Part shown: positions 27,031-39,010 of the stretch, one piece after another
Layout: each line of letters starts with the position of its first letter
Position numbering within the stretch: the first letter of the stretch is position 1
Assembly (NCBI GenBank): GCA_905480235.1
Contig: CAJQPP010000046.1
Location: 1 to 41,081, forward strand
Source: an uncultured Pirellulaceae bacterium
Lineage (GTDB): Bacteria; Planctomycetota; Planctomycetia; Pirellulales; Pirellulaceae
DNA length: 41,081 bases
Direction of reading: 5' to 3'
Program-made: the position numbers and the translations under genes
The notes under the pieces: generated by a model
Seen by the model: only the letters and a program-made list of their open reading frames with translations
What the model was told of the DNA's origin: nothing
Databases searched by the model: none

Positions 27031-27930
27031 CTACAACAGGCCTTCGCCCGAGTTGTGATCGGTACGGAAGGGGCTGCGGTTTTTCGGGTTGGACTTTTCC
27101 TGGGGAAAGAACTGAGCGAGGAAGTCAATTGACTGCTTTGCGAATACCGGCGCGTTGTAGCTGTGTCGGCTAAGTTCGACAAAGACCCCACCCTGATAGT
27201 CGATGTCTTGCAATGCGGCAAAGATCGGTGGGAAATGGATGTGGCCATCGCCAAACATCAAATGCTCATGGTCGCCCGCCTTCATATCCTCGATATGCAC
27301 ATTCACAATGCGATCTTTCCAACGCAATATGAAATCAACGATCGGGACTTCGCCCTGGCAAAATAAGTGCCCAATGTCCAAAGTCAGTTGAAACGCGGGA
27401 CTGTCGATCCATTGCAATAATCGCTCATAGGCGTTCATGGTATCGATCAACATTCCGGGCTCGGGCTCAAAACCAATGATGACGTCATTGGTTTCGGCGT
27501 ATTGAATTACGGGGTCCAGCGATTCGGCCAAACGATCCATCGCTGTTTGAAGGTTGATGGTGTCGGGTTTCTTACCTGACCACAAAGAGACGCAATCACT
27601 CCCCAAACTGGCCGCGACATCAATGCAACGCTTGAGGTATTCGATTCGCTGGAAACGGTTCTCGGATCCCTCACTGATCAAAGTGGGTTCGTGTTTGACA
27701 TTGGGGTTCAGGAGAAACCTGGCGCCCGTCTCTACCACGGTCTTTAACCGGTAAAGCTGCAATGCACTCTCGAATTCGCGCAGACGCGCATCGAATTGCG
27801 GGTCGAAAGGATTTAGCCAACCATGGTCTACGGTGATTGCAATCCCGTCGTACCCCAGCTCTGCGATTAACTCGATCGCTTGCAGGGAATGATGATTCGC
27901 CAGTCCGTTCGTGTTGTAACCGAGGTACAC
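27031..27930 (-). CDS. sugar phosphate isomerase/epimerase-like TIM-barrel protein
   Basis: 299 residues from a GTG at 27930. The frame stays open further upstream, but that part would overlap the end of the UbiA-like gene by 100 bases, and homologues of this type begin close to the LGYNTNG motif, so I prefer the GTG. No ribosome site is visible. The metal-binding residues of the xylose isomerase-like barrel are present: Glu in GFEPEPG, Asp and His in LTLDIGHLF, His in VNVHIEDM, and Glu in FVELSRHS. Function could be an epimerase, isomerase or metal-dependent hydrolase. It lies 23 bases after the UbiA-like gene on the same strand, so the two are probably one transcript. Confidence 0.82.
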   Translation of the reverse strand: MYLGYNTNGLANHHSLQAIELIAELGYDGIAITVDHGWLNPFDPQFDARLREFESALQLYRLKTVVETGARFLLNPNVKHEPTLISEGSENRFQRIEYLKRCIDVAASLGSDCVSLWSGKKPDTINLQTAMDRLAESLDPVIQYAETNDVIIGFEPEPGMLIDTMNAYERLLQWIDSPAFQLTLDIGHLFCQGEVPIVDFILRWKDRIVNVHIEDMKAGDHEHLMFGDGHIHFPPIFAALQDIDYQGGVFVELSRHSYNAPVFAKQSIDFLAQFFPQEKSNPKNRSPFRTDHNSGEGLL

Positions 27931-27953
27931 AGGTGCTTTGTCTAAAAAACGGA

Positions 27954-28925
27954 TTAAGTAGCCATGATTCGCCGGCTTGTGATCCACGCTGGAATGATCA
28001 ACAAAGCCACTAATAAAGCATAAATGGGAGTGTTGGATGATGCCAGATAACAAATGGACGCATCTATCATGATGATGGTAAGAAGACTTGTAACCACCGC
28101 TTTTTTCACATCACCGGGTGACCCTGTCGAGATACCGACCAGCAAGTTTCGAAACACCGGAAAGACCATCATGATCAATAAACCAACAAACAGCAGGGGA
28201 CGCTGAAATTGCGTGATGGAGCTTTCCGCTGACACTCCCGCCTGAATCCACATGGAACTATACGGCAAAGTTGCCAAGCCAATGACCGCCAAAACCATTA
28301 GGCTGGCCCCCGCGATCAAGTTGATACGGGAACTGGAGCGGTGCTCGTCGCGAGCATACAGCGTGATCCCCGCGACATAAACACCCACGCAAACAGCGAT
28401 ATAAATTTGGAAAGGTTCAAAAAACGGAAGGCCTGGGTCACCGGTGGTTAGGGAGCACCCCAGCAAAACATTGCCAGCTCGGCACAAACCCATCGCGGAC
28501 GGGCCAAGCCAAGTTGATTTTGCCCAACCGTTGTAAAAATAAACGGCAATTAAAACCAATAAAGCGACCCACACCGGAGTCCATGATGCGCTCTCGGCCA
28601 ATCTGGCGGCTGCCATCGCTGAGACAAGGGCAACGGTTATCAGTCCCAGCAGGAGTCTCTTTGCATGACTAAGGGAGATCACGCCGCTGGGCAGCACTCT
28701 TTCCGGACGCTCCTGACAATCCAAACGAAAATCGCACACGTCATTCATGACCATACCAGCGAGATACAGGCAGCTCGAACAAAGTAGCAATGCAAATAAC
28801 CCCCACCATTGATTAGGCGTCGCCGCGGGCAATGCTGAAATGGCAAATCCCATGAGGATGTTGGACCAAGTCGTGGGAAGAAGTGATATCCGCATCAGGC
28901 GGAGGTAGTCGGAAAATTTGCTCAT
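27954..28925 (-). CDS. UbiA-family prenyltransferase, EboC-like
   Basis: 323 residues from the ATG at 28925; the frame is open 75 codons further but the upstream part is not protein-like. Eight to nine hydrophobic segments are seen. The first Asp-rich motif NDVCDFRLD (61-69) followed by RPERVLPSG is characteristic of the family that binds prenyl diphosphate and magnesium. The second acidic motif is weaker (ARDEH). The wording RPER-x-LPSG resembles EboC-type UbiA proteins, which act in an uncharacterised pathway with a TIM-barrel protein. The aromatic or sugar-like acceptor is unknown. Ubiquinone, menaquinone or haem O roles are not supported by neighbours. Confidence 0.85.
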   Translation of the reverse strand: MSKFSDYLRLMRISLLPTTWSNILMGFAISALPAATPNQWWGLFALLLCSSCLYLAGMVMNDVCDFRLDCQERPERVLPSGVISLSHAKRLLLGLITVALVSAMAAARLAESASWTPVWVALLVLIAVYFYNGWAKSTWLGPSAMGLCRAGNVLLGCSLTTGDPGLPFFEPFQIYIAVCVGVYVAGITLYARDEHRSSSRINLIAGASLMVLAVIGLATLPYSSMWIQAGVSAESSITQFQRPLLFVGLLIMMVFPVFRNLLVGISTGSPGDVKKAVVTSLLTIIMIDASICYLASSNTPIYALLVALLIIPAWITSRRIMAT

Positions 28926-29389
28926 GCAGCAATTAAAGCACGAATGCAGATGTGTGCAAGCGTCGGATTGCTGGTGCAGCCGAGGATTCGGGGGCCAGCG
29001 ACTTGCTTTATCCCATTGTAGAAAGGGTTGCGTGGGAATTGTCTGTGGCGGGAGATTTCGGTCAGCGCAAAAAATAAGCCCGGAAGGCCAAGTGGCTGAT
29101 TCCGGACTAGTCCCCCCCTGGGATACTGCAATGCAGATGCAATTTCCCATTTGTGTTGATCAGGTCAACACAATTAGTTATCGGAGCCTGATGCGAAATA
29201 CTTTGACGATAAACGGAGGGAAAATTGACTCGGAAAAAATAGTTCGAAAAGTGCTATCGGAATTTGGTAAATCTTGGGGAAGTTTGTCAATTCTTTAATC
29301 TGTGCGCCTCGACTTTGCCGATTTTTCCGAATAGCTAAAGTGCCAAAGTTTTATGTCTTCAATTCAACTTGAAACCGGATCTTTTTCGG
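28926..29389. promoter_or_regulatory. divergent intergenic region with two dyads
   Basis: 464 bases between the UbiA-like gene and the ExbB-like operon with no convincing gene. It holds a strong dyad at 29151-29173 (listed separately) and a smaller perfect one, CTGCA-A-TGCAG, at 29126-29136. Promoters for both directions should lie here. Confidence 0.45.
29151..29173. promoter_or_regulatory. operator-like perfect dyad
   Basis: Arms TTGTGTTGA and TCAACACAA, 9 bp each and perfectly complementary, are separated by 5 bases (TCAGG). The size and centre spacing fit a binding site for a homodimeric helix-turn-helix repressor. There is no T-tract, so it is not a terminator. Which gene it controls is unknown; the ExbB-like operon starts about 216 bases further on. 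Confidence 0.5.
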
Positions 29390-30745
29390 ATGAGTTCAAA
29401 ACAGACTTCTCGACCAACTCTGCCTTATAACATCGTATTGCCAATCTTTTTGGGTTTGGCGGCGTTTATCGTGTTATTCGCATCGATTAACAATGGAACT
29501 ATAAACAACGAGATGGTGACTCGATATTTGGCAGGCCATACGGTCTCCAAGGTCACCACGGCGATGTTCATGGTGGGGATGGCGTCATTGTTGTTCATCC
29601 TCTGCGATATTTTCCGACAACGAAGTTTACTGTCGAAAATTTCTTTATCGGCCAATGCTGGCAAATTACAGCAAGAGTCCGAACAAGACGGAGCGACGCC
29701 CGCAACGGGTGAACTGCAGGTTCGCTTAGAGCAACATCAGGGTCGGCGTCGTAGAAGCTATTTTTGGAGGCGACTCTATACGGCTTTAGATTTCGTACAT
29801 CGCAATGGTTCGCCAGACGGTCTCGATGAAGAGTTAAAATACGCTTCAGAATTGGATCAGGACGAGAAACACGATCGTTACTCGTTCGCCAGGATTCTAG
29901 TCTGGGCTATTCCTATGCTGGGATTCCTTGGAACTGTGTTGGGGATTTCTGAGGCGTTGGGTGGGTTGGAAATTGGCGAAGACAATAATTTTCAAGAAAT
30001 GATGGGGGGCTTACGCAGTAGCCTTTATGTCGCTTTTGATACCACGGCGATTGCCCTGACCTTTGCCATTCTTTTGATGTTCACCATGTTTGCGGTGGAT
30101 CGCTCCGAATCGAGCTTGCTTACTCAGGTGGAAGCTCGTACTCGGGAGGAGTTATTGCCGCATTGGGAACTTACCAATCAGGCCAAGGACTCCTATGTGC
30201 AAGCGGTGGAAGCGATTGGCGTGCAGATGCTCGATTCGACCGAGCAACTAGTAGACCGACAGGTCAAGCTGTGGCGAGCTAACATTGACGCGGCCGAATC
30301 CGCCTGGGTCGAATCGGTAAGATCTACGCAAACCGTCGTCCAGGAAAAACTTGAGCATGCACTCAACTCTTCCACGGAGAACCTTGGAGATCGCTTGCGA
30401 GAAACCATTCAGAAAAGTGATGAAGCGGTGGGCCGGCGTTGGGAGCAATGGCAAGTAGCACTTTCGGAGAACGCTCGCCTGTTAGCCGGTCATCAGCAAC
30501 AGCTGGTCGAATATTCCAGGAATATGATGCAGTCGTTGGAGAATATAGGATCCCTTGCGGAAACCAAGCAGGCGATTGCCGACTATCTTGAAAACGTGCC
30601 ATTATCGGCGGAATACTCGGACGCCAGTGATAAACTGGCAACGGCGGTTCGCTTGTTGGAGTTTCGGTTAACCCAATTAGATGCTGCGGAAACGCATGCC
30701 ACACAAGACGATTCCGATCCGGACACCGTGAGACATGCAGCATGA
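29390..30745 (+). CDS. MotA/TolQ/ExbB-type proton channel subunit with long tail
   Basis: 451 residues from the ATG at 29390 (a TTG lies 7 codons earlier). Four membrane segments are seen at about 13-34, 54-75, 166-188 and 212-236. The third contains MLGFLGTVLGI and the fourth SSLYVAFDTTAIALT, the two conserved stretches of the TolQ/ExbB channel domain. A cytoplasmic loop (about 76-165) lies between the pairs. Residues 240-451 form a long, mostly helical hydrophilic tail far longer than in ExbB or TolQ. These proteins form a pentameric ring that uses proton flow to drive a dimeric partner. The next gene overlaps it by 4 bases (ATGA) and encodes one such partner. Confidence 0.87.
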   Translation: MSSKQTSRPTLPYNIVLPIFLGLAAFIVLFASINNGTINNEMVTRYLAGHTVSKVTTAMFMVGMASLLFILCDIFRQRSLLSKISLSANAGKLQQESEQDGATPATGELQVRLEQHQGRRRRSYFWRRLYTALDFVHRNGSPDGLDEELKYASELDQDEKHDRYSFARILVWAIPMLGFLGTVLGISEALGGLEIGEDNNFQEMMGGLRSSLYVAFDTTAIALTFAILLMFTMFAVDRSESSLLTQVEARTREELLPHWELTNQAKDSYVQAVEAIGVQMLDSTEQLVDRQVKLWRANIDAAESAWVESVRSTQTVVQEKLEHALNSSTENLGDRLRETIQKSDEAVGRRWEQWQVALSENARLLAGHQQQLVEYSRNMMQSLENIGSLAETKQAIADYLENVPLSAEYSDASDKLATAVRLLEFRLTQLDAAETHATQDDSDPDTVRHAA

Positions 30746-32481
30746 GTCGAAAACGACAACGGGAAATAGGCGTTGCAGTCAGCTTATTCCCGTTTTTGGC
30801 TGTATTGATCTGCACGATGGGCGTGCTGATCGTGATGCTTGTTTTGGCCGTCAGCAGTTCCGCCAACAAGGCACAGGAAGCCAATCTCGACCGGCTTGAG
30901 GAGCTCCAAAAGGAACGCGAGGTTCTGTTGGATGTCTTGGATTTGGAGCAATTTCGCGTCAAATCACTCTCCAACATGCGGCCCAATTTGAAACGTCGCT
31001 TGGAAGAAGAAAAGTTACGGCGCAGTCACCTCGATGAGGAGATACGCAGGCTCAACGAGGAAACTCGGGTGCTCGAATCCCAGTTTCAAGGGCTTATTAG
31101 TAATGACTCTGAGACGTTGCAAACCCGTCAACAAGACAGCGATCGTATTATTGAAATGCGTCTGCAGATCGAAAAAAAACGGTCTGAGCTTGAGCTGGCC
31201 CGAAATGAAAATATTGGGCAACCGGTACTCTACTCCATCGTTCCCACCCGCACCTCGGGCGGAACCGAGCGGCGTCCCATTTATGTGGAATGCACGGCCA
31301 GTGGCATTCAACTACAACCCTCAGGCATCACGATCGGTTTGGATGATTTCACCAAGCCAATATTACCGGGTAACCCTTTGGACGTAGCTTTGTTGACAAC
31401 ACGCGAACATTGGAACAAGTTCGATACGGGTGGAGCCAAAGGTGAGCCTTATCCATTAATTGTCGTCAGGCCCGGCGGGGCAACGTCCTACGCTGTGGCG
31501 CGTCGCGCGATGACCAGTTGGGATGATGAGTTTGGTTACGAACTGGTGGAAAACGAAAAACGACTTAACTGGGGTGAGGCTGACTCCAATTTGTCGTCGA
31601 GTTTAAGGCAAGCTATTTCCATATCCAAACAACGACAACTACAGCAAGTGGAAGCAGGTCTGGCGACCTGGTTTAATTCAGGGCCAAATCGCGTCGGTTC
31701 GCTAGGAGGGCAACCATTGAGCGGTGGCTCAAGTGAGCGAAAATTCTCCCAAGCAGGTCAATCACAAAGAAATCAATACAAAAATGGCAGGGGGGATGTT
31801 GCTTCGGGGATGGGGTCCCCATCGCAAAACGCCAAGGATTTTGGGCGCTCGGGACCAACCCGCGGTGGGCAGTTCCCAAGCGAAGGTAGCTTCGCAAGTA
31901 ACGCTTCGAAATCGGGTGGTTTGGATACCACAAAAAAGGATAGCCTGACGCGATTTGCTGGTTCGCAACGCAGCTCCAAAGGGCAACGCGGTGGAAGTAG
32001 CGCGAGGAAAAATTCCAATCAACGGGGGATGGGTTCGCCTGGTGATGGTGGGGGGGAAGGCAACATGGCCAGCGCTTTGTCGCAGGATCCAACCAGTTTG
32101 TCGGCCCAAGCTCAACAAACGAAACCGTTGGCAAATTCTCGTGGAGAGAATTGGGCACTGCCCACGCGAACGCCGGGTGCAACACCCTACCGACGTCCCA
32201 TCCGGGTGGATTGTCGAGAGGATCATTATCTGATTTATAGTAGCGACCTCGATAGAACGAGGATTCGCATTGCCATTACCAATTCGGTTGATGTGGCAAT
32301 CGATGAACTGGTTAATGAGGTTTGGAGCCAAATTGAAGGATGGGGGATGGCCGAGATTGGTGGTTATTGGAAACCGGTTTTAAGGCTAACCACCGACGAT
32401 ATCCAAGGCGCTGCCAAGGCTGATGAATTGGCGAGGAAAATGGAAAACAGTGGCATCGAAATTGAGAGGCAGTGGCGATGA
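30742..32481 (+). CDS. ExbD/TolR-like subunit with duplicated domain and Gly/Ser/Gln-rich linker
   Basis: 579 residues. A single membrane helix (about 12-36) reads SLFPFLAVLICTMGVLI. In ExbD and TolR the FLDV position carries the proton-binding Asp; here it is Ala20. A coiled coil follows (about 43-155). Domain A (about 160-290) and domain B (about 470-579) are related: both begin with the pattern PTRT-x-G-x-T, then RRPI-x-V-x-C. Between them lies a low-complexity Gly/Ser/Gln/Lys linker (about 310-455). The gene overlaps both neighbours (4-base ATGA overlaps), so synthesis is coupled. It presumably forms the periplasmic part of a proton-driven machine with the ExbB-like protein. Function unknown. 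Confidence 0.8.
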   Translation: MSRKRQREIGVAVSLFPFLAVLICTMGVLIVMLVLAVSSSANKAQEANLDRLEELQKEREVLLDVLDLEQFRVKSLSNMRPNLKRRLEEEKLRRSHLDEEIRRLNEETRVLESQFQGLISNDSETLQTRQQDSDRIIEMRLQIEKKRSELELARNENIGQPVLYSIVPTRTSGGTERRPIYVECTASGIQLQPSGITIGLDDFTKPILPGNPLDVALLTTREHWNKFDTGGAKGEPYPLIVVRPGGATSYAVARRAMTSWDDEFGYELVENEKRLNWGEADSNLSSSLRQAISISKQRQLQQVEAGLATWFNSGPNRVGSLGGQPLSGGSSERKFSQAGQSQRNQYKNGRGDVASGMGSPSQNAKDFGRSGPTRGGQFPSEGSFASNASKSGGLDTTKKDSLTRFAGSQRSSKGQRGGSSARKNSNQRGMGSPGDGGGEGNMASALSQDPTSLSAQAQQTKPLANSRGENWALPTRTPGATPYRRPIRVDCREDHYLIYSSDLDRTRIRIAITNSVDVAIDELVNEVWSQIEGWGMAEIGGYWKPVLRLTTDDIQGAAKADELARKMENSGIEIERQWR

Positions 32482-33509
32482 AAATTCGGCGGTCTCGAAG
32501 ACACGGGCAAGATAATGTAGGCGGCGAAGATTCTTTTTTGGATATCGTGGCCAACCTGGTGGGGGTCCTGATCATTCTTGTCGTGGTGGTAGGTGCCAAG
32601 GCAGGGACGAAAATTCAGGCCTCTGTAAGTGATGCTGAGGAAGGAGTGGCTATCGCGGAATTGCAAAAGCAGCAAGACAAAACGCAGCGACATGCCCGCA
32701 ACCTGCTAAAGGACAACTACGAGCTAGAGGATAAGATTCTGCTCGAGCAACAAATGACGGCCGATCGTAATGATTTGCGAAATCGTCTACTGGTCCACAT
32801 GGTTTCCGTGAAAAAAGAAATTGAAAATCGCGCTCAGTCGTTGGACGAAAACCAAAAGCAAGCTTTTCAGCAAGCGGAAAAATTGGTGACACTGGAATCG
32901 CAATTTCGCAAGCTAGATAGTGAATACACGGCCTTGAAAGCGGTCAATCGTCGCGAAGAAGCGATCAAGCACTACCCGACTCCGATCGCGAAAACAGTAT
33001 TCAGTGAAGAGATTCATTTTCGTTTACGAGCCGGGCGGATCGCCTACGTACCTATGACGGAACTGACGGAACGCATGCAGGATGAGTGGAAAGAAAAAGC
33101 CAGAAAACTTCAAATCGCAAGTGAAACGGTAGAAACGGTCGGGCCGGTAGGAGATTTTCGCTTGCAATATCACCTCCAAGCCGAAGACCGCGTCTCCACC
33201 ACAGCTTACGGGGAGGCAAAGGAGCGATTCATTGAATTCACTCGATTCGTGATGGTGCCAACGCGTGAGGGCATCGGAGTACCGCTGGAAAAAGCGATCC
33301 AACGGGGGACCGATTTTTCAAATTGGATCGACCTTTCAGTGCCCGAAAAAACCACCGTATCGATTTGGGTTTATCCCGATAGCTTCAATGAATTCAACCA
33401 GTTAAAGCAGTGGTTGTATGAACGGGGGTTTAAAACGGCTTGCTGGCCGCTGTCGCAAAACTCTCCCATTTCTGGCGGTCCCGCCGGGTATCGATCGACC
33501 GCCCAGTAA
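32478..33509 (+). CDS. second ExbD/TolR-like subunit, retaining the membrane aspartate
   Basis: 343 residues from the ATG that overlaps the previous stop (ATGA). The N-terminus is strongly basic (KIRRSRRHG), followed by a single membrane helix at about 20-40 reading SFLDIVANLVGVLIILVVVV. Asp22 stands at the FLD position expected to carry protons in ExbD/TolR. A coiled coil follows (about 55-150), then a C-terminal globular part (about 165-325) with VSIWVYPDSFNEFNQLKQWL, which resembles the periplasmic domains in the preceding gene product in layout. It is the last gene of the overlapping trio. Confidence 0.8.
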   Translation: MKIRRSRRHGQDNVGGEDSFLDIVANLVGVLIILVVVVGAKAGTKIQASVSDAEEGVAIAELQKQQDKTQRHARNLLKDNYELEDKILLEQQMTADRNDLRNRLLVHMVSVKKEIENRAQSLDENQKQAFQQAEKLVTLESQFRKLDSEYTALKAVNRREEAIKHYPTPIAKTVFSEEIHFRLRAGRIAYVPMTELTERMQDEWKEKARKLQIASETVETVGPVGDFRLQYHLQAEDRVSTTAYGEAKERFIEFTRFVMVPTREGIGVPLEKAIQRGTDFSNWIDLSVPEKTTVSIWVYPDSFNEFNQLKQWLYERGFKTACWPLSQNSPISGGPAGYRSTAQ

Positions 33510-33646
33510 CCCTTTGTGGGAAACGTCTCTCAGGGTTTGGTCGGCAACTGGCTTGCATATTCGTCCAGTTTTCGTAACGTAGCATGCATCGTTTCCAAGC
33601 CGTCGGGGTACGGAATCCGTTTCTGCATTTACGACGATTATTGAGA

Positions 33647-34111
33647 ATGGCCCGCAAAAATCCGCGCCGTAACATCTCACGAATCGACATGAGCTCTGCC
33701 AGCGGAAGCCAGCACGGCGGTTGGGAGGTGCGTATGCAGAGGCGCGGAAAAAAATTCGGCAAGTTCTTTGCTGATGGTCAGTTCGGTGGGCGTCGCGCCT
33801 CATTGAATGCAGCGAAAGCCTATCGAGACGGTTTGGAAGCTCGGCTGGCAGGGTATTCAGTAAAAGAGTTGGCGCGAAAACCCTCTACACGCAATACCTC
33901 TGGGATCGTTGGTGTTCGACGCGCAGTGCAAGTCGAAGAGACTGAGGATTACGTTTACACTTACGCGTTTTGGATTGCGCAGTGGATCGACGGTAAGGGC
34001 AAACGAAAAACACGTAGTTTTTCGATTGAGAAGTACGGCGAAGAAGACGCTTTCCAACGCGCTGTTGCGGCACGGACCAATGGGGTCAGCCATGCCAAAC
34101 GTACTTTGTAA
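33647..34111 (+). CDS. small protein with two AP2-like DNA-binding modules
   Basis: 154 residues from the ATG at 33647; the frame opens 21 codons earlier but that part looks non-coding. Two stretches have the look of AP2/ERF-type modules (a three-stranded sheet and a helix): about 24-67, with GGWEVRM, KFFADGQFGG and the helix NAAKAYRDGLEARL, and about 85-143, with SGIVGVRR, YAFWIAQWIDGKGKRKTRSFS and the helix EDAFQRAVAAR. The protein is very basic, which fits nucleic-acid binding. In bacteria AP2 modules are mostly found joined to HNH nucleases or integrases; here there is no enzyme domain. It lies 137 bases after the ExbD-like gene on the same strand. A link is not shown. Confidence 0.68.
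   Translation: MARKNPRRNISRIDMSSASGSQHGGWEVRMQRRGKKFGKFFADGQFGGRRASLNAAKAYRDGLEARLAGYSVKELARKPSTRNTSGIVGVRRAVQVEETEDYVYTYAFWIAQWIDGKGKRKTRSFSIEKYGEEDAFQRAVAARTNGVSHAKRTL

Positions 34112-38515: not shown

Positions 38516-39010
<495 letters not shown>

Follow-up and report, generated by a model that had tools for sequence, protein, structure and literature searches.

The closest described arrangement to the three genes considered here is that of AglR-AglQ-AglS, the gliding motor of Myxococcus xanthus, in which one channel gene is likewise accompanied by two adjoining partner genes (PMC3169522; here and below, papers are cited from parts of their text). Both AglQ and AglS have been described with a conserved aspartate (PMC9389320). 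ExbB-ExbD-TonB and TolQ-TolR-TolA likewise combine a channel with one-helix partners bearing periplasmic domains, and the known axles of such motors are homodimeric, with an Asp on both strands (PMC12215075). The system studied here lies in a 41,081-nucleotide stretch of DNA from an uncultured Pirellulaceae bacterium (assembly GCA_905480235.1, contig CAJQPP010000046.1; the whole stretch is termed the window), and consists of a channel, protein A, and two different one-helix partners, proteins B and C, of which only C has an Asp in its membrane helix. This differs from AglRQS both in the absence of the Asp from B and in the family assignment, as AglQ and AglS are members of the Pfam ExbD family and neither B nor C is. 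The genes and the two helix motifs are as follows.

29390..30745, plus strand: protein A, MotA/TolQ/ExbB-type channel, 451 residues (ATG at 29390 in an open frame; PF01618)
30742..32481, plus strand: protein B, one-helix partner without a helix Asp, 579 residues (open reading frame, homologue alignment)
30784..30822, plus strand: helix motif of B, LFPFLAVLICTMG, residues 15-27, including Ala20 (invariant columns)
32478..33509, plus strand: protein C, one-helix partner with a helix Asp, 343 residues (open reading frame, homologue alignment)
32529..32564, plus strand: helix motif of C, DSFLDIVANLVG, residues 18-29, including Asp22 (alignment)

An earlier note on this DNA had described three genes that overlap by four bases each, and the coordinates, the frames and both joints are exact, each joint being an ATGA (A/B at 30742-30745, B/C at 32478-32481). 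Its assignment of A to the MotA/TolQ/ExbB-type channels was borne out by a Pfam match to PF01618 (MotA_ExbB) of 45.1 bits against a cut-off of 22.9 (E = 1.1e-11). The assignment of both partners to the ExbD/TolR type had to be given up at the level of families: neither B nor C matches PF02472 (ExbD) at E up to 1, whereas 8 of 8 conventional ExbD proteins of the same genome, taken as a control, do match, and neither B nor C reaches the cut-off of any curated Pfam or NCBIfam family.

Conservation of the two helix residues

Each partner has a single N-terminal helix, SLFPFLAVLICTMG in B and DSFLDIVANLVG in C, and the difference on which the earlier note had remarked can be read directly in them, with the codon of Ala20 at 30799-30801 and that of Asp22 at 32541-32543. 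Across 39 aligned rows of B, 11 of the invariant columns fall within the 13-residue helix motif and 24 elsewhere along the 579 residues, so that, as judged from the alignment, the helix is the best-conserved part of the protein. Asp22 of C is invariant in 48 aligned rows. Among the best 120 of 634 matches to B, Ala is found in 119, the exception (P0170) having no N-terminus; among the best 120 of 1513 matches to C, Asp is found in all 120, in 118 by pattern and in P0019 and P0024 by reading the letters as ESFLD. Because the two residues are kept to this extent, the difference between Ala20 and Asp22 is, on the sequence counts, not a matter of chance.

The first evidence for the Ala rule was biased in that the search words and patterns contained FPFLA; it is weak alone and is used as support only. 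In the pattern-based set the helix position of B reads Ala in 77 and Thr in 4 of 81 rows. Because searches based on B included the helix words, the test was redone from C. A profile of C found matches in 53 of 392 genomes of the phylum and, within the class, in 200 of 248 genomes (193 of 240 when only the better genomes are taken), counts that include the S-type relatives described below and relatives lacking the helix. The resulting C-based set comprised 57 loci, made up of all 37 phylum matches above 100 bits except that of the window itself, plus a further 20 class matches picked to cover new families, with B read as the gene upstream of C. The helix of B was readable at 50 of these loci and carries Ala at 45, Thr at 3, Ser at 2 and Asp or Glu at none, while C has its Asp at 50 of 50, a count that is less independent than that of B as the C profile contains the C helix. 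The Ala/Asp difference is hence kept across homologues of the window's own type. The seven loci without a readable B helix are L177 and L223-L226, all of family f82, and L227 and L231, at contig ends. L235 was counted as Thr, since the automatic pattern was out of register with its letters, FPVLTVL; at L160 and L240 the automatic C pattern matched elsewhere, the actual letters being DSFLD; and L207 and L210 were left out as too partial.

The genes are also kept together. The channel adjoins B and C at 49 of the 50 C-based loci, and at the remaining one (L176) the contig end cuts the channel. In a genome scan of the best 80 of 407 relatives, 79 with planctomycete titles and one titled only 'bacterium', the channel precedes B in 80/80 loci and the full order channel-B-C is found in 76/80; three of the four loci without C are at contig ends, and at the fourth (L098) B is cut short, with no C in the final 2.2 kb. 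A trio is also carried by the laboratory planctomycete Blastopirellula marina (L071). As a separate observation on the C helix, the C proteins of family f112 (L227-L232) have an Arg or Lys within it at 6/6 loci read, for example DSFLDVVTNVVGIIIRLILV.

Related trios, channel tails and periplasmic domains

The profile of C also reached two further kinds of trio, which share this gene order. In the S-type, B reads LFPFLS or a close form, with Ser in 19/19 B proteins (15 adjoining a C match and four, L215-L218, fetched from B matches), and C reads DSLLD, the exceptions being L201 (DSLMD) and the distant L208 (DSLAD). Ser is kept in 118 of the best 120 of 869 matches to S-type B, the other two having no N-terminus, and these homologues are planctomycete wherever the source name shows a taxon. 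Six genomes have an S-type C with no adjoining B, and in 6/6 the B gene is present elsewhere in the genome. Such a split, with the two S-type genes at distant places of the genome, is seen in genus g5 (L184, L186, L192, L194, L195 and L199, compared with G048, G069, G238, G299, G350 and G385), and both genes persist in those six genomes.

In the D-type, B reads F-x-F-Q-D (FAFLD in L214), with an Asp in the column of Ala20, and C mostly reads LELLLD or LDLLLD. Asp is present on both partners at 12/12 loci, and also at L251, which was found later. The two-Asp pairing of the AglRQS type, absent from the trio of the window, is present at all 12. The distant trio L214 has F-x-F-L-D on both partners (FAFLDV and FSFLDI), a nearly symmetric two-Asp pair, and one genome, G381, carries all three kinds of trio (L151, L191 and L220). 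Paired conventional ExbD genes, with Asp on both, occur beside ExbB at three loci of the window's own genome (L003, L004 and L007). The earlier note had held that homologues of B with Asp at the same position would refute the asymmetric pair; such homologues are absent from the window's own type (0/50) and occur only in the distant D-type trios (12/12). The Asp on both D-type partners fits an asymmetry with a two-Asp pair as its origin, and is no refutation of it, the direction of change being unsettled.

Profile comparisons with hhalign join these proteins. B aligns with C at 96.8% (E = 2.4e-10, 152 columns) with Ala opposite Asp, with D-type B at 99.3% (E = 4.9e-20, 255 columns) and with S-type B at 99.7%; C aligns with D-type C at 99.6%, and D-type B with D-type C at 98.8%. 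In a whole-genome search the D-type B profile also finds the B of the window, at E = 3.6e-13. On the strength of these matches B and C are sisters by sequence, and the Ala of B stands where its relatives have Asp, a pattern that fits an ancestral two-Asp heterodimer in which one Asp was lost.

Hydropathy predicts four helices in A, at residues 15-33, 57-75, 169-187 and 218-236, followed by 215 residues, which agrees with the long tail that had been claimed for this protein. After the fourth helix there are 163-285 residues in 31 A/T-type channel rows and 123-231 in 17 S-type rows, but 17-58 in 12 D-type rows and 32-72 in 5 conventional ExbB rows from the window's own genome. In a tree of 57 channels the A-type (with the T-type) and the D-type each occupy one side of a branch supported by 100/100, and Asp versus no Asp requires one change. 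This tree omits three long rows and five outgroup rows from a set of 65 channels, and its root is not settled; the tree of all 65, with the outgroup and the long rows, is less clean, with 5 changes among four states, and L190 and L191 (both Ser) are in neither tree. Tail length and the absence of the Asp both change on a single branch, and so count as one event and not as a statistical association.

Four predicted helices, the second and third separated by a large loop, are features that A shares with MotA, and if the order of helices is MotA-like the tail would lie on the cytoplasmic side. The tail itself and the partners differ from those of MotA-MotB, there being no Pfam match to an OmpA-type wall-binding domain in either B or C. 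A Thr in transmembrane helix 3 (GFLGT) and another in transmembrane helix 4 (FDTT) are kept in 78/79 channel rows, the remaining row being a gap; we take them to be the pore Thr of MotA/TolQ/ExbB channels. This agrees with the description in PMC12215075, where one of the two axle Asp of known motors is at the conserved channel Thr and the other points toward the cavity. Varied non-flagellar A subunits with extra domains also appear in a study of stator evolution (PMC12505986). The tail, and the regions of B and C beyond their helices, are placed as follows.

30098..30742, plus strand: long C-terminal tail of A, residues 237-451 (hydropathy, tail lengths)
31228..31551, plus strand: residues 163-270 of B, first periplasmic domain, with a fold suggestive of TolR
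31654..32136, plus strand: low-confidence Gly/Ser/Gln-rich linker of B, residues 305-465 (predicted local distance difference test, pLDDT; alignment)
32179..32478, plus strand: residues 480-579 of B, second periplasmic domain, with a fold suggestive of ExbD but level with unrelated folds
32991..33494, plus strand: residues 172-339 of C, periplasmic domain, with a fold suggestive of TolR

The linker of B has a pLDDT below 50 at residues 311-360 and 362-456; in the alignment it is gappy and little of it is conserved. Searching the PDB with the predicted models of B and C by Foldseek gave nothing under E 0.001, and searches of the PDB by sequence gave no useful match; the modelled folds do no more than suggest a resemblance of the periplasmic domains of both proteins to ExbD/TolR.

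Family f82, in which the pair has parted from its channel, offers a natural control. At four loci (L223-L226) the homologues of B and C lie apart from any channel, and neither shows its helix motif; at L177 C alone was read. In 22/22 genomes of this family tested, the match to B begins no earlier than profile position 65, compared with position 1-5 in 4/5 comparison genomes with a B match in the same search and 38 in the fifth, G501. That the two motifs, with Ala in B and with Asp in C, vanish together when the pair is parted from the channel suggests that each of them serves the channel. A channel relative is present elsewhere in 22/22 f82 genomes (69-115 bits). Among ten regions around such channels, L251 (in G404) is the D-type trio mentioned above, seven (L243-L248 and L250; in G402, G418, G444, G377, G408, G395 and G412) have an adjoining partner with the helix EDSFVAVVVTKLTGALLFIL, which has no Asp and one Lys, and two (L249 and L252) have no adjoining partner visible. 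The channels at the EDSFVAVVVTKLTGALLFIL loci are long-tailed and the partner has further predicted helices; possibly the ion drive of this motor has been lost, or another residue is used.

The proposed motor and its rivals

We consider it about an even chance that A, B and C form a 5:1:1 rotary motor, with an axle that has a single ion-carrying side. Rather less confidence attaches to a broader proposal, that planctomycetes possess natural 5:1:1 motors with an obligate heterodimer as axle, one of its helices being dead, and that these evolved from a two-Asp heterodimer which some of the same cells still carry. In such a motor five A channels would surround one B helix and one C helix in a shared pore, and ions (H+ or Na+) would load only on Asp22 of C, at each meeting with one of the five channel subunits. 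Known motors are described as passing ten ions per turn, as five channels pass two strands (PMC9389320), with one of the two axle Asp likely to bear a proton at a time (PMC12215075); the 5:1:1 motor would instead complete a turn in 72-degree steps on five ions and reach roughly half the maximum torque. The passive side of its axle would be the Ala helix of B, which would fill the pore, fix the register and join the coiled coil of B to that of C. The periplasmic domains of B and C would grip the wall or an outer-membrane partner, the reaching arm being formed by the linker and second domain that B has in addition, and the channel pentamer would either rotate its long tail within the cytoplasm or be braced by that tail. 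The shared pore, the stoichiometry, the rotation, the ion and the role in the cell envelope are all points that we infer.

B and C are favoured as two strands of one axle because of the Ala/Asp rule, the related Ser/Asp and Asp/Asp trios, their homology and the joint loss of the motifs in f82. The main rival places a C homodimer in the channel and B outside the pentamer, as an arm like TonB or TolA with its Ala helix docked on the outer face. This would reproduce the composition of the Ton and Tol motors, which likewise consist of a channel, ExbD/TolR and TonB/TolA, and the helices of TonB and TolA do attach to individual channel chains, on surfaces exposed to the membrane (PMC12215075); B is, moreover, the longest partner, and has both an additional C-terminal domain and a long linker that is disordered. 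It is nevertheless unlikely, if worth serious consideration, since B is homologous to C over both helix and coiled coil, its S- and D-type counterparts are, in the aligned rows, no more than about 260-281 residues long, and its distant relatives have Asp in the same column. TonB and TolA helices need no Asp at that place. The helix of B also has no His, hence no SHLS-type motif, no TonB or TolA match to B was found in Pfam, and the four predicted channel helices and the tail of about 215 residues set the trio further apart from Ton and Tol.

A different division of labour, with separate homodimers on one channel type, an active C2 and an ion-dead B2 serving as brake, leak plug or storage form, has a parallel in AglQ and AglS, which share one channel and for which hetero- versus homodimerisation is stated to be not known in the part of PMC9389320 that concerns them. 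The order A-B-C with its ATGA overlaps suggests equal dosage, however, and an inert homodimer would hardly be expected to keep its helix as its best-conserved part, making this arrangement improbable. It is more doubtful still that B carries an ion through another residue and that the axle so retains two working sides: the candidates Cys24 and Thr25, close to Ala20, are conserved in the pattern-based set (C in 77/81 rows, T in 79/81), but Cys24 is replaced by Ser or Ala in 4/81 rows and Thr25 by Ala or Val at many further loci, and neither offers the carboxylate that proton-driven relatives need, as is established for ExbD, TolR and MotB. The long tail behind the channel core recalls ZorA, likewise long-tailed, and A matches the ZorA2 model of PADLOC at E = 1.5e-10, tail included, which would be expected of a Zorya-like phage-defence machine whose channel tail signals to a cytoplasmic effector. 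That A scores 9.9 bits against an NCBIfam ZorA cut-off of 500, that neither partner is matched by any ZorB model at E up to 1, and that no Zorya effector was found in the 10 neighbours scanned, where the metallo-beta-lactamase matches belong to a ComEC-like protein, leave this explanation scarcely credible; the occurrence of the C family in 200/248 class genomes also seems too regular for mobile defence.

One observation speaks against a simple rule, namely that in f82 a channel of the same kind is able to live with an Asp-less partner. Among the open-licence papers listed by literature searches, titles and abstract openings showed nothing on an Asp-less ExbD/TolR partner or on this trio.

Neighbouring genes and significance

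The earlier note had reported no TonB, Tol-Pal or flagellar gene nearby, and a scan of 20 neighbouring proteins showed none of these domains, nor does any of the 20 point to a pathway. Within 10 kb of the trio at 81 loci, the common neighbours are UbiA-like (30), AP2-like (27) and xylose-isomerase-like (21) genes and a leucine-rich-repeat protein (18); considered as a clue to the driven process, none accounts for a motor, and they are taken as synteny. In the window, a UbiA-type prenyltransferase and a xylose-isomerase-like TIM barrel (27031-29150, minus strand) are divergent from the trio, and correspond to the UbiA-type gene at 30/81 and the xylose-isomerase-like gene at 21/81 loci; together they recall the cyanobacterial ebo cluster. 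A small AP2-domain-like protein (PF00847, just below the cut-off) follows the trio at 33584-34111 and is found at 27/81 loci. Further away, a short open reading frame at 38516-38977 on the minus strand matches only the end of the ThiC profile (positions 308-419 of 420); the remainder of the ThiC-like gene may be frameshifted or in another frame.

The trio would probably perform a housekeeping task in the envelope. The main text of a study of essential genes in P. limnophila (PMC10632474) contains none of the terms MotA, ExbB, ExbD, TolQ, proton channel or biopolymer. One genome, G105 (family f3, a single contig, 99% complete), has no match to C, B, S-type B or the channel, and is a natural loss of the trio.

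The trio points to a force-driven process that is common in a class with an unusual cell envelope and division. A pair in which one strand is incapable of carrying an ion provides a test case, in a living system, for the question of whether axles can be heterodimers, and testing is aided by the occurrence within one phylum of all three versions (Asp/Asp, Ser/Asp and Ala/Asp), which in G381 share a single genome. If the proposed motor is real, one charged strand of the axle suffices.
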